From Acidimicrobiales bacterium (GTDB taxonomy: Bacteria; Actinomycetota; Acidimicrobiia; Acidimicrobiales; DATDAH01), in assembly GCA_016794585.1 (NCBI GenBank), contig JAEUJM010000031.1, forward strand, positions 1 to 64,000: 64,000 nucleotides of DNA, written 5' to 3'. Of this stretch, positions 38,909 to 62,355 are shown piece by piece. A program made the translations under genes and the position numbers. The notes under the pieces are model-generated. The model was not told the DNA's origin, did no database searches, and saw only the letters and a list, made by a program, of their open reading frames with translations. Position 1 is the stretch's first letter. Every line of letters starts with the position of its first letter.

Positions 38909-39718
38909 TCAGTAGCGCTGCTCGACGAAGGTCTGCTCGCTGATGGGCGGGCGCACGTAATCGTCGGGCCCCCGGGGCGGCAGCACCGCCGGCGCCGACG
39001 TGACGTCCTTGTACGGGATCTGGCTCAACAGGTGCGAGATGCAGTTCAGCCGGGCCCTGCGCTTGTCGTCCGACGGCACCACCCACCAGGGCGACCACTT
39101 CGTGTCGGTGAACCGGAACATCTCGTCCTTGGCCCGCGAGTAGTCCGCCCACCGGGCCCGGGACTCGAGGTCCATGGGGCTCAGCTTCCACCGCTTGTCG
39201 GGCCGGTCGATGCGGGCCTGGAAGCGCCGCTCCTGCTCCTCGTCGCTCACCGAGAACCAGTACTTCACCAGGACGATCCCGGAGTGGATCAGCATCCGCT
39301 CGAACTCGGGGACCGACCGCAGGAACTCCGTGTGCTCTTCGTCGGTGCAGAACCCCATCACCCGCTCGACGCCCGCCCGGTTGTACCAGGACCGGTCGAA
39401 CAGCACGATCTCACCCGCCGACGGCAGCTCCGCGACGTAGCGCTGGAAGTACCACTGCGTGCGTTCCTTCTCCGTCGGCGTCCCGAGGGCCACCACCCGC
39501 ACGATGCGCGGGTTCGTGCGCTCGACGATGCGCTTGATGGTGCCTCCCTTGCCGGCGGCGTCCCGCCCCTCGAACAGGACGCAGACCTTGAGGCCCTCGT
39601 CGCGCACCCAGCCCTGGAGCTTCACCAGCTCCCGCTGAAGGTGCTGGAGCTCCTTCTCGTACTCGGCGGTCGGCATCTTGGCCGATCCGGTCGCGCCGTC
39701 ACCGTGCTTCTTGGTCAT
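38909..39718 (-). CDS. ppk2: Polyphosphate kinase 2
   Basis: The 269-residue protein has the PPK2 P-loop FEGRDAAGKGGTIKR, Walker B FDRSWYNRAGVERVMGF and lid-region YWFSVSDEEQERRFQAR. The length fits single-domain class I PPK2. It uses polyphosphate to phosphorylate nucleoside diphosphates (GDP or ADP), and the reverse. It probably acts alone. Confidence 0.93.
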   Translation of the reverse strand: MTKKHGDGATGSAKMPTAEYEKELQHLQRELVKLQGWVRDEGLKVCVLFEGRDAAGKGGTIKRIVERTNPRIVRVVALGTPTEKERTQWYFQRYVAELPSAGEIVLFDRSWYNRAGVERVMGFCTDEEHTEFLRSVPEFERMLIHSGIVLVKYWFSVSDEEQERRFQARIDRPDKRWKLSPMDLESRARWADYSRAKDEMFRFTDTKWSPWWVVPSDDKRRARLNCISHLLSQIPYKDVTSAPAVLPPRGPDDYVRPPISEQTFVEQRY

Positions 39719-39814: not shown

Positions 39815-40423
39815 TCAGACGCGGGCGGCCTCGATGGTGGCGACCGCCGCCTTGCGGACGGCCACGAGCTGAGCGTCGGTGGCGCCGGCCGCCTGGAGGA
39901 GGATGCCCCCGTCGAGCTGGGCCAGCGCCGCAGCCACCGTCCCCGGCGCCCGGCGGGCGGGCACGCCCATGGACACCAGCGCCGGAACGGCCAGCTCCAG
40001 CCAGCGGTCGATCACCCGGGTGGCGGCGGACCGGTACGGCTCGCCCCGCCGGCGGGTGAGCACGAACAGTTCGAGGAAGAGGTCGACGATCCCCTGGGCC
40101 GCTGGGTCGGTGAGCAGGCCCCAGAGCCCCTCGACGAAGGCCTTGGGTGACCGACTGAGCTCGGGAAGGACGAGCTCGAGGGCTCCCGCGAGGCCGTCGG
40201 CGGCCCGGTCCACCACGGCGGCCACGAGGTCGTCCTTCGTGCCGAAGTAGTAGAGGAGCATGCGGTCGCTCGTGCCGACCGACCGGGCCAGGGGGCGGAG
40301 GGAGAGATCGGCGAGCCCGTGCTCGATCGTCCACGCCACCGCTCCGTCGAGGAGCTCGTCTCGGCGCGCGGACGACTCGTCGGGGGGCGGGTTCACATCG
40401 CCATGGTACGCACGAGGCTTCAT
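39815..40423 (-). CDS. TetR-family regulator, controls divergent hydrolase
   Basis: The 202-residue protein has the TetR HTH: LLDGAVAWTIEHGLADLSLRPLARSVGTSDRMLLYYFGTKDDLV in pieces over residues 24-66. The ATG at 40423 lies inside an operator arm and lacks a Shine-Dalgarno sequence; GTG 40396 is an alternative giving nine fewer residues. It is divergent from the hydrolase gene, and both promoters lie between two matched operators, so it should repress both genes. Confidence 0.87.
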   Translation of the reverse strand: MKPRAYHGDVNPPPDESSARRDELLDGAVAWTIEHGLADLSLRPLARSVGTSDRMLLYYFGTKDDLVAAVVDRAADGLAGALELVLPELSRSPKAFVEGLWGLLTDPAAQGIVDLFLELFVLTRRRGEPYRSAATRVIDRWLELAVPALVSMGVPARRAPGTVAAALAQLDGGILLQAAGATDAQLVAVRKAAVATIEAARV

Positions 40424-40478
40424 GTTGTAGCAGTCGCTACAACATGCCTATGCTGGTTGTAGCGACCGCTACAACCAG
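40421..40478. promoter_or_regulatory. Overlapping divergent promoters with two TetR operators
   Basis: Operator 1 is CATGTTGTAGC-AGTC-GCTACAACATG (arms 40421-40431 and 40436-40446). Operator 2 is CTGGTTGTAGC-GACC-GCTACAACCAG (arms 40453-40463 and 40468-40478). Each has perfect 11-bp arms and shares the core TTGTAGC-N4-GCTACAA. The centres are 32 bp apart, three helical turns. A rightward promoter uses TTGTAG (40425-40430), 18 nt, TATGCT (40449-40454). A leftward one uses TTGTAG (40474-40469), 16 nt, CATAGG (40452-40447). Both -35 boxes are inside operators. Confidence 0.8.
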
Positions 40479-40487
40479 GAGAACCAC

Positions 40488-41339
40488 ATGCGCACCGTCG
40501 AGCCCCAGATCGTCGACACCAACCTCGGGCCCGTCGAGGTACGGGTCGAGGGCGAGGGACCGGCCGTGGTCTTCTCCCACGCCGCCATCACCAACCACGA
40601 CCTCTGGGACGGCCTCTCGGGCACCCTCCTGTCCGACCACCGCGTGATCCGGGCCACCCTGCCCATGGGCGCGCACCACCTCCCCGCAGCGCACCGGGAC
40701 CGGATCGAGTTGGTCAACCTCGCCGACGCCCTCGTCGAGGTGCTCGACGCCCTCGACATCCGCCAGGCCGCCTTCGTCGGCTGCGACTCGGGCGGCGCGG
40801 TCGCCCAGACCATCGTCGCCCGCCACCCCGAGCGGGTGACGGGGCTATTCCTCTTCTCCTGCGACGCCTTCGACAACTTCCCGCCGAAGGCCTTCCGGCC
40901 GGTGTGCGCGGCCATGCGCCGCTCGTGGGGCGCCTCGATCTTCGAGCTCTACCGGTTCGACGTCTTCCGCAAGTGGGGGGCCTGGCGCTTCCTGGCCAAG
41001 CGGGGCTGGACCGACGAACTGAACCGCTCGTGCTTCGAACCGCTGCGTGACCGCGAGATCCGTGACGACGCCGCCGCCCTGTTCGCGTCGGCCCGGCCCA
41101 CGGAGCTGCCCGCCCTCACCGACGACCTCGCCGCGTACGAGGGCCCCGTGCACATCGCCTGGTCCCGCAGGGACATCCTCTTCCCCAAGAAGTACGGCGA
41201 GCGCCTCGCCGCCACCTTCCCCACCGCGGAGCTCACCTGGTTCGAGGACGCGATGACCTTCGCCTTCCTCGACGAGCCCGACGAGGCCGCCGCCCGCCTG
41301 CGGCGCTTCCTCACCGAACGGGTGGCGGCCGTCGCTTGA
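40488..41339 (+). CDS. Alpha/beta hydrolase with Asp nucleophile
   Basis: The 283-residue protein has the fold motifs VVFSHAAITNHDLW and the nucleophile elbow VGCDSGGAVAQ, in which Asp takes the nucleophile position as in haloalkane dehalogenases and epoxide hydrolases. The usual C-terminal G-H-F is absent; the aligned region reads EDAMTFAFLDEPDEAA. It may therefore be a binding protein or use another base. AGGAG six bases before ATG 40488. It is under the control of the divergent TetR protein. Confidence 0.8.
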   Translation: MRTVEPQIVDTNLGPVEVRVEGEGPAVVFSHAAITNHDLWDGLSGTLLSDHRVIRATLPMGAHHLPAAHRDRIELVNLADALVEVLDALDIRQAAFVGCDSGGAVAQTIVARHPERVTGLFLFSCDAFDNFPPKAFRPVCAAMRRSWGASIFELYRFDVFRKWGAWRFLAKRGWTDELNRSCFEPLRDREIRDDAAALFASARPTELPALTDDLAAYEGPVHIAWSRRDILFPKKYGERLAATFPTAELTWFEDAMTFAFLDEPDEAAARLRRFLTERVAAVA

Positions 41340-59658: not shown

Positions 59659-62355
59659 ATGGGCGGGGGGCCGATGGGGACGGTGACGTTCCTGTTCTCG
59701 GACATCGAGGGCTCGACCCGCCTGTGGCAGAGCCACTCGGCGGCCATGCAGGCCGCGCTCCCCCGCCACGACGCGCTGCTCCGGGCGGCCTTCGCCGCCC
59801 ACGACGGACAGGTGTTCGCGACCGGCGGCGACGGGTTCGCGGTGGCGTTCGCCCGCGCCGGCGATGCGCTCGCCGCGGCGGAGGAGGCGCAAGCCGCCCT
59901 CGCCGCCGAGGACTGGCCCGACGACGCGGTGCTGCGGGTTCGCATGGGCATCCACACCGGCGAGGCGGTCGAGCGCGACGGCGACTACTTCGGGAGTGCG
60001 GTGAACCGAACGGCCCGCCTCATGGCCCTCGCCCACGGCGGCCAGGTCGTCTGCACGGCCACGACCCTCGGCGTGGTCGAGGACCCGCCCCCCACCCTCG
60101 ACCTGGGTGAGCACCGCCTGCGCGACCTGCTGGCCCCCGTCCACGTGCACCAGGTCGGCACCGAGCCGTTCCCGCCGCTGCGGTCGAACGCCCTCGTCCC
60201 GACCAACCTGCCCACGCCGGCCACCGACCTCATCGGTCGCGACGACGACGTCGCCAGACTCGTCGCCGACCTCAGCGATCACCGCCTCGTCACGATCACC
60301 GGGGTCGGCGGGATGGGCAAGACGCGCCTGGCGGTCGAGGTCGCCGCGGCGCTCGCCGGAGAGCACCCCGACGGCGTCTGGTTCGTCGACCTCGCCCCCG
60401 CCCTCGACGGCGGCGACGTGGTCCGTGCCGTGGGCTCGGCCATGGGCGCCACCGGCGCGTCGTCGGGCACCGACGCCCTTGTCGACCACCTGGCCGGCCG
60501 CACCACGCTGCTCGTGCTCGACAACTGCGAGCACGTGATCGACGCCGCCGCCGACCTGGCCGGGCAGATCCTGGCCCGGGCCCCCGAGGTCCGCCTGCTG
60601 GCCACCTCGCGCGAGCCGCTCGACGTCGCCGGCGAGACGGTGAAGCACCTCCGCCCCCTTGCGCTCCCCGACCCGGCGACGCTGGTCGCGACAACGGCCG
60701 ACTACCCCGCGCTCCGACTGTTCGCCGAGCGCGCCGCGGCCGCCCGCGGCGGCTTCACGATCGACGAGCACAACCTCGACGACGTCGTGGAGATCTGCCG
60801 GCGCCTCGACGGGGTACCCCTCGCCATCGAGCTGGCCGCCGCCCGGGTGGGCGCCATGTCCACCGCCGACATCTGTGCCCGCCTCGGCGAGCGCTTCCGG
60901 CTCCTCGCCGGCGCGCGCCGCGGCCACGAGCGCCACCGCACCCTGCTCGCGACGGTCGACTGGTCCTACGGCCTGCTCGACCCCGACGAGCAGCGGGTCT
61001 TCCGCACGCTGTCCGTGTTCGCCGGCAGCTTCGGCCTCGCCGACGCCGCCGCGGTGGTGGCGGGGCCCGACGGCGACGAGTTCACCGTGCTCGACCAGGT
61101 CACCCGGCTGGTCGAGCGCTCCCTCGTCAACCACGACGGCGAGACCGGCCGCTACCGCCTCCTCGAGACGCTTCGCCAGTACGGCGACGACCGCCTCACC
61201 GACGCCGGCGAGGCCGAGGAGGCCCGCACCCGGTTCGCCGACCACTTCCTGGCGATGGCGCTCCGGGAAGGCCCCCGCATGGGCGGCGCGGACCACGACG
61301 AGGCCCGGGCGGTGCTCCTCGCCGCCATCGACAACCTCCGCGCGACCGCCGAATGGCTCGGAGCGACGGGCCGCGTCCAGGACCTCGCCGCCATGGCCGC
61401 ACCGATGTGGACGTTCCTCAGCCAAGAGGCGCCCGCCGAGACCATCGGGTGGTTCCGCCCCGCCCTCGACGCCGGCGCCGAGCTCGACCTCCAGGTCCGG
61501 TACGACGCCCTGTGGTCGGTGGCGTCGAACACCATGATCGCCGGCAACTTCACCGACGCCCTCGCCCTGCACGAGCAGGTCCGAACGCTGACCGCCGAGC
61601 ACCCGGAGATCGCGGAGTCGGGTTGGGCCTACCAGGTGCCGGTGCTGGTGGCGATCTTCACCGGGGATCGCAACGACCTGCGTGCCTCGGCCGAGCGCAT
61701 GCGGCAGGTGGCCCTCCTCCGTGGCGACCCGACCGCGGAGACGTTCGCCCGCGGCTGCCTCCTCCAGATGGAGAATCCGGACGACCCTGCCTTCGAGGCT
61801 GCCACCGAGCAGCTGCTGGCCGACGCCCGGGCCATCGGCGGCCCCGTGTGGTGGGGGTCCACCATCGGCCTCCTCACCGGCGCGTTCCTCGAGGACGAGC
61901 GGGCGGTAGCGCAAGCGCCCGCGCTGCTGTCTCTGATCGACCGCGACCCGGGTTGGCACGACAGCGGCTCGACCATCGAATCGGCCATCCTCAACAGCCG
62001 GTCGGCGGCGCTCGCCATGGTGGACCCCCCTGCGGCCGTCCCGGTCCTCGCCGAAGCGACCGTCGTCACCGACCGCCTGGGTGCTGTCGCGGCCAAGGCC
62101 GACCAGGCCCTGATCGCCTCGTACGCCGCGCTCCGCCTCGACGAGGCGGAGCAAGCTCGGCGCCTCTACCGCCACCACCTGGCGGTCGCGCCCTTCGAGG
62201 CGCCCTTCTACGCCTGGATGCGACGCGACCTCCTCGACGGGTTCGCCGCCGCCGGCTTCGGCCCGGACGACCTGACGCCCGAGGCCCTGGGCCGCCACGA
62301 GCTCTTCGCCCTGCTGGTCGAGCTCCAGCAGCGCCATCCCGTCACCGGCGGCTGA
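59659..62355 (+). CDS. Class III adenylate/guanylate cyclase fused to NB-ARC ATPase
   Basis: The 898-residue protein begins with a complete class III cyclase domain: D15 in FSDIEGST, D58 in GGDGFAVAF, and N116/R120 in SAVNRTARL. A STAND/NB-ARC ATPase follows, with Walker A GVGGMGKTRL at 215-224, VLDNCEHV and TSREPLDV, then helical repeats. An alternative ATG at 59674 has GGGGGG in front. Unlike the 46.6-kb paralogue it keeps all cyclase residues. No DNA-binding domain is attached. Confidence 0.9.
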   Translation: MGGGPMGTVTFLFSDIEGSTRLWQSHSAAMQAALPRHDALLRAAFAAHDGQVFATGGDGFAVAFARAGDALAAAEEAQAALAAEDWPDDAVLRVRMGIHTGEAVERDGDYFGSAVNRTARLMALAHGGQVVCTATTLGVVEDPPPTLDLGEHRLRDLLAPVHVHQVGTEPFPPLRSNALVPTNLPTPATDLIGRDDDVARLVADLSDHRLVTITGVGGMGKTRLAVEVAAALAGEHPDGVWFVDLAPALDGGDVVRAVGSAMGATGASSGTDALVDHLAGRTTLLVLDNCEHVIDAAADLAGQILARAPEVRLLATSREPLDVAGETVKHLRPLALPDPATLVATTADYPALRLFAERAAAARGGFTIDEHNLDDVVEICRRLDGVPLAIELAAARVGAMSTADICARLGERFRLLAGARRGHERHRTLLATVDWSYGLLDPDEQRVFRTLSVFAGSFGLADAAAVVAGPDGDEFTVLDQVTRLVERSLVNHDGETGRYRLLETLRQYGDDRLTDAGEAEEARTRFADHFLAMALREGPRMGGADHDEARAVLLAAIDNLRATAEWLGATGRVQDLAAMAAPMWTFLSQEAPAETIGWFRPALDAGAELDLQVRYDALWSVASNTMIAGNFTDALALHEQVRTLTAEHPEIAESGWAYQVPVLVAIFTGDRNDLRASAERMRQVALLRGDPTAETFARGCLLQMENPDDPAFEAATEQLLADARAIGGPVWWGSTIGLLTGAFLEDERAVAQAPALLSLIDRDPGWHDSGSTIESAILNSRSAALAMVDPPAAVPVLAEATVVTDRLGAVAAKADQALIASYAALRLDEAEQARRLYRHHLAVAPFEAPFYAWMRRDLLDGFAAAGFGPDDLTPEALGRHELFALLVELQQRHPVTGG

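Follow-up and report, generated by a model that had tools for sequence, protein, structure and literature searches.

A TetR-family regulator gene, which runs leftward, and an alpha/beta-hydrolase gene, which runs rightward, are separated by 64 bp, most of which is taken up by two long, matched palindromes. What binds there, and does it control these two genes only? The locus lies in the window, by which we mean the whole 64,000-nucleotide stretch that was analyzed. Our answer, in which we have considerable confidence, is that the palindromes form a classical dual-operator switch of the Tet type that is autoregulated and acts only on its own gene pair. This reading is based on the presence of the same operator in relatives with the same recognition helix and on the lack of any other such site in the genome.

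Matched inverted repeats in a divergent gap

The features of the locus, in order of position, are as follows.

39815-40423, minus strand: TetR-family regulator gene, longest open reading frame from ATG 40423 (PF00440, 36.4 bits)
40403-40408, minus strand: putative leaderless TetR promoter -10, TACCAT, 6 nt ahead of GTG 40396-40394, proposed from the family pattern
40421-40446, no strand: probable operator 1, TetR-proximal; perfect 26-bp inverted repeat with core TTGTAGC-N4-GCTACAA, also identified by family footprint
40425-40430, plus strand: putative hydrolase -35, TTGTAG, inside operator 1 and 18 bp from TATGCT; below threshold in the promoter scan
40445-40450, minus strand: alternative TetR -10, TAGGCA, on the symmetrical reading of the initial annotation; 18 bp from TTGTAG 40474-40469, weak, no scan hit
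40449-40454, plus strand: putative hydrolase -10, TATGCT, read from sequence; between the operators, its last 2 bp within operator 2
40453-40478, no strand: probable operator 2, hydrolase-proximal; perfect 26-bp inverted repeat with the same core, also identified by family footprint
40477-40482, plus strand: predicted hydrolase ribosome-binding site, AGGAGA, overlapping the end of operator 2
40488-41339, plus strand: alpha/beta-hydrolase-fold gene (PF00561, 54.1 bits), with GCDSGG around D100 and Thr257 in place of the catalytic His

The TetR gene is followed downstream, on the same strand, by a polyphosphate kinase 2 gene (PPK2, 38909-39718; PF03976, 354 bits).

As the initial annotation had described, both repeats are perfect over 26 bp, share the core and have centers 32 bp apart (40433.5 and 40465.5). 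Site 1 (40421-40446) reads CATGTTGTAGC-AGTC-GCTACAACATG and site 2 (40453-40478) reads CTGGTTGTAGCG-AC-CGCTACAACCAG; the core is exact in both, and the outermost three bases are unlike (CAT versus CTG). When up to three mismatches are allowed, these two sites are the only matches to the core in the window, compared with a shuffle mean of 0.19, and none of 100 window shuffles reaches two. Perfect inverted repeats with arms of at least 11 and a gap of at most 4 occur at four distinct places in the window (30 dinucleotide shuffles gave a mean of 0.57 and a maximum of 3), and only these two have their sequence in common. The other two places are 2824-2850 and 62130-62152.

A genome scan for the core palindrome had been suggested as a way to find other targets of the repressor. 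Across the 5.49-Mb genome, it yielded none at up to two mismatches: only these two sites match, whereas a reversed control pattern gives 12 matches per strand. A wider family pattern with three mismatches adds four sites, compared with 24 control matches per strand. Among 396 genomes of the phylum, the exact paired core is present in one, the source genome itself. Because the core matches only here while control patterns match elsewhere, the operator pair is far above chance and private to the locus.

Operator sequence follows the recognition helix

The regulator belongs to the TetR/AcrR family by both its helix-turn-helix profile (36.4 bits for PF00440 against a cut-off of 24) and its all-helical fold, with nine helices and a helical ligand domain in an AlphaFold model of pLDDT 92.7. 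Its recognition helix, alpha-3, spans residues 53-60 and reads DRMLLYYF. Relatives were collected from a set of 59 relatives, 395 genomes of the class, a collection of 84,980 species and 248 genomes of the order, and 105 non-redundant TetR rows were kept after duplicate proteins and C-terminal partial hits had been dropped (one locus, L018, gave no TetR hit). The 84,980-species collection contributed 62 loci picked by the peptide DR[TM][VI]VYYF, and helix conservation in those loci thus follows from how they were chosen; the operator played no part in the choice. Operators were scored as matches to TTGTAG-N6-CTACAA within 150 bp upstream, with a maximum of 12.

Both sites in the window score 12/12. 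A score of at least 10/12 is reached by 54 of the 68 relatives with a DR..YYF helix (55 of 69 with the window; L150 is in both counts), compared with 15 of 4240 shuffled upstream regions, where the shuffles preserve base composition only. The remaining 14 of the 69 DR rows lack a TTGTAG site at 10/12, and none of the 69 reaches 11/12 for a second pattern, TGTACC-N4-GGTACA. This second operator accompanies a different helix, HR..xHF, in which it is present at 11/12 or better in 22 of 24 rows (3 of 4240 shuffled regions reach this level), and the TTGTAG type at 10/12 in none of the 24. Members of the HR..xHF set include L006-L008, L023-L027, L036, L044, L127 and L134, and several have two copies 16 bp apart. 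The genome that contains the window itself carries an HR-type paralogue with a TGTACC operator (L134).

The DR-type operator has the consensus TTGTAGYG-CRCTACAA, and in 80 sites of relatives scoring at least 10/12, G at -7, A at -5, C at +3, T at +4 and C at +6 are invariant (80/80). Operator class and helix signature occur together in Actinomycetota, Myxococcota, Acidobacteriota and uncultured lineages. One further actinobacterial genome (L150) encodes a helix, GTSDRMLLYYFGTK, that is identical to that of the window and carries GTAGCGGTCGCTAC upstream, as a single site about 100 bp upstream of the ATG and not as two.

On the protein tree, the DR and HR rows fall largely into two clades, and the pairings of operator with helix therefore do not represent many independent events. 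The window TetR lies outside the main DR clade (65 rows, support 98/99) and outside the HR clade, yet it still has the DR..YYF helix and the TTGTAG operator by which we assign it to this group. Its identity to the aligned DR rows is 23-34%, and it is across this distance that the footprint evidence is carried over. Close TetR relatives on plasmids comprise 13 records, every one below 60% identity. The operator identity, its conservation with the TetR type, the two copies and their exclusivity in the genome are established by these computations. The earlier proposal that the repeats are TetR operators gains from the same comparison, in that relatives with the same helix carry the same core, in most cases a short distance ahead of the TetR start codon and often in duplicate next to a divergent gene. 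Judged on this sequence evidence, the repeats in the window are very likely operators of the adjacent TetR.

Site spacing, promoter plan and the TetR start

Counting sites of at least 9/12 in the 69 DR rows (window included), 34 rows have two or more, 21 have one and 14 have none. These 69 rows include L103 (21 bp upstream), which is absent from the operator-type comparison, where L150 was added. The initial annotation had pictured a near-symmetrical switch of overlapping promoters, with each -35 inside one operator and the operators three helical turns apart. Taken literally, this model puts each -35 in the far operator, and its spacing would let the two dimers sit on one face of the helix. 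This is the strongest of the alternatives, and we consider it doubtful. Its appeal is plain from the sequence, since TTGTAG arms do lie 18 bp from TATGCT on the plus strand and from TAGGCA on the minus strand, and 32 bp is near three turns. However, center spacing in 38 relatives ranges from 20 to 30 bp, and 36 of these are scattered over every value from 24 to 29 bp, such that the 32 bp of the window is the largest. On this distribution, we reject helical phasing as a conserved feature.

The promoter symmetry fares little better. The plus-strand arrangement is present as described, but its minus-strand counterpart (40450-40445) lacks the final T of a -10 box and is poor. The two -10 boxes, which were said to share TATG, overlap by only 2 bp (TA) unless one takes the poorer CATAGG instead. 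At its threshold, a sigma-70 consensus scan picked up no promoter in the region.

The relatives point to a different plan. Of the 69 rows, 38 have TTGA-N16-18-TANNNT on the divergent strand, compared with 0.59 expected by shuffling, which again preserves base composition only. In most of those 38, the -35 and -10 are separated by the TetR-proximal operator, which takes up the spacer, and the -10 is followed closely by the second operator; in many family members, the -10 of the divergent gene is thus placed between the two sites. The window is absent from these 38 rows. The sole reasonable -35 on its hydrolase side is the arm of the operator itself (TTGTAG, 18-bp spacer). The logic of the family is nevertheless kept, with TATGCT between the operators and operator 1 over the upstream element.

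On the TetR side, the start could be mapped in 57 relatives. TANNNT precedes the start codon by 5-9 nt in 51 of these, compared with 3.3 expected from the same kind of shuffle, and takes the form TACRRT in 39 (0.27 expected); just 9 of the 57 have a Shine-Dalgarno-like run before the start. Based on the nearby TANNNT and the few Shine-Dalgarno-like runs, the mRNAs of DR-type TetRs look leaderless, with a -10 that appears to grow from the operator edge. This pattern is at odds with a symmetrical promoter pair. In the window, ATG 40423 has no ribosome-binding site, and the pattern occurs only at an in-frame GTG that is 27 nt inside the longest TetR frame (TACCAT-N6-GTG, 40408-40394). Given the family pattern, GTG 40396 is more likely to be the start than ATG 40423, and the product would be 9 aa shorter; the nine residues removed are a low-confidence part of the TetR model. 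The gap, which is 64 bp from ATG 40423, would then be 91 bp, and the TetR -10 would lie beyond site 1, on its other side.

How much of each repeat matters

A second alternative is that each 26-bp palindrome takes a pair of dimers (four in total) and that the full arm length matters, as for QacR. The perfect symmetry extends to 26 bp, which is close to the 28-bp QacR site according to the portion of PMC4482099 consulted. The known QacR system thus resembles the locus in the length of its palindrome, but it differs in that the window has two separate sites. Moreover, only about 16-18 bp of each site is conserved in the 80 sites of relatives, with poorly conserved flanks, and the outer arms of the two window sites differ from each other. 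We therefore regard a QacR-like arrangement as improbable. The possibility that the repeats work as RNA hairpins, in an attenuator or an mRNA stability element, and not as sites for a protein can be dismissed as extremely remote even though a transcript of either could fold into a strong stem, because relatives conserve the sequence itself beyond pairing, this sequence varies with the recognition helix, there is no terminator-like site, and the hydrolase transcript is inferred to start downstream of operator 1.

A probable Tet-type switch acting on its own gene pair

The arrangement best fits a Tet-type dual-operator switch, in which binding, repression, release by ligand and the start sites are predicted as follows. 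A homodimeric TetR-family repressor, encoded leftward, would bind its own palindromic operator at both places where it occurs in the gap. Operator 1 would cover the hydrolase -35 just upstream of the TetR start, and because of this position a dimer bound to it should shut off the hydrolase gene and also repress the TetR gene, whichever of the two TetR starts is used. Operator 2 would span the end of the hydrolase -10, the start site and the region up to the ribosome-binding site, and would lock the hydrolase gene a second time. The repressor would be freed by a small ligand, which is probably hydrophobic and a substrate of the hydrolase-fold protein, or else a reactive compound that this protein handles. 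The switch would be local and self-limiting, since the genome offers its regulator no further strong site. One point against this scheme is that the window has only weak promoter hexamers.

The Tn10-type tetR-tetA system provides the closest precedent. According to the parts of PMC3511530 and PMC3037858 consulted, it likewise has a repressor and target transcribed divergently, with a gap of 81 bp versus 64 bp here, and two palindromic operators over the promoters, as is probably the case in the window. In the tet operon, one of the sites tetO1 and tetO2 silences both genes and the other is an extra lock on the target (PMC3037858, in part); the same division, with one operator for both genes and the other mainly for the target, would be expected here. 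The proposal in the initial annotation that one repressor shuts both genes is consistent with this paradigm and with the anatomy of the locus. It also agrees with the rule in the consulted portion of PMC3511530 that divergent targets less than 200 bp from a TetR gene are mostly or always repressed by that TetR, given that the gap here is 64 bp. Hence the locus shares with the Tet paradigm a divergent target within 200 bp and palindromic operators in the gap, and apparently their overlap with promoters. It differs in its operator sequence, in having a hydrolase-fold target rather than an efflux pump, and in its probably leaderless TetR gene.

Two further comparisons are useful. In AbTetR-tetA(G) of Acinetobacter baumannii, a divergent gap of 103 bp holds two inverted repeats, comparable to the window, but these are 13 and 14 bp long and the function is tetracycline efflux (PMC8326586, in part). 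The group of 68 DR..YYF relatives shares the helix, the TTGTAGYG operator, often two sites, and in many cases a divergent hydrolase. The window departs from this group in that its protein is outside the main clade, its sites are 32 bp apart, and its -35 is in an operator arm rather than in an adjoining TTGAYY.

The locus itself is thus a textbook arrangement, and the sequence of its sites is common to a wide, apparently undescribed group of repressors. In a literature search on the operator, on divergent TetR/hydrolase pairs, and on dual-operator and leaderless systems, no title or abstract described a TTGTAG operator, and this operator class is apparently new to the literature. Eleven new mycobacterial TetR motifs are given as images in PMC4482099 (consulted in part), and one of them could be the TTGTAG operator. 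In the portion of PMC4070704 consulted, matches to the operator string are primers only.

The hydrolase-fold protein and other divergent partners

The hydrolase model has a pLDDT of 92.0, and its best PDB matches are mostly HaloTag or haloalkane dehalogenase. Within its own clade (the window and L136-L149), all 15 rows keep the nucleophile D100, which aligns with the nucleophile region of the dehalogenases. The column aligned to the His of GLHYLQED in the dehalogenases, which we take to be the catalytic His, contains no His in any of the 15 rows and has Thr257 in the window. Hence, of the features of haloalkane dehalogenases and epoxide hydrolases, the protein has the Asp nucleophile and lacks the C-terminal catalytic His. 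A second residue, H63, is also invariant in all 15 rows and, judging by this conservation, could be a relocated His.

Divergent hydrolase genes are found beside many DR-type TetRs, and 16 of these hydrolases that were aligned have Leu or Thr at the His place (read by eye). The nearest of the 16 to the window protein are two from Myxococcota, at 34-35% identity. The 14 loci of hydrolase homologues in the phylum (L136-L149) have no operator pair, with one chance-like 11/12 site at L146, from which we conclude that the operator travels with the TetR type and not with the hydrolase.

HaloTag owes its function to the removal of its catalytic His. Our literature search found no paper on natural dehalogenases without a catalytic histidine. 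A bolder combined reading, which we regard as a long shot, is that the gene under the switch encodes a natural counterpart of HaloTag and that the repressors follow a simple recognition code. A protein with the Asp nucleophile but no catalytic His might then react with haloalkanes or epoxides to give a stable alkyl-enzyme, and the protein might be a single-use trap for alkylating compounds, produced when the TetR senses them. In the code, Asp at the start of alpha-3 together with Tyr-Tyr would read TTGTAGYG, and His together with Tyr-His would read TGTACC. Because one operator class is paired with one helix signature, such a specificity code, which contrasts TTGTAGCG with TGTACC, is directly testable by a two-residue swap. 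The regulators would likewise provide a handle on hydrolase-fold proteins that lack the catalytic His.

Some DR-type TetRs have other divergent partners. Limonene-1,2-epoxide hydrolase (LEH, PF07858) is the partner in L093 and L098, DUF4267-like proteins below the Pfam cut-off in L065 and L094, and a membrane-like protein of about 134 aa in L051, L052, L054 and similar loci. These partners hint at epoxide or lipid-like signals, and a reasonable guess is that the inducing signal is hydrophobic, perhaps of epoxide or halide type.
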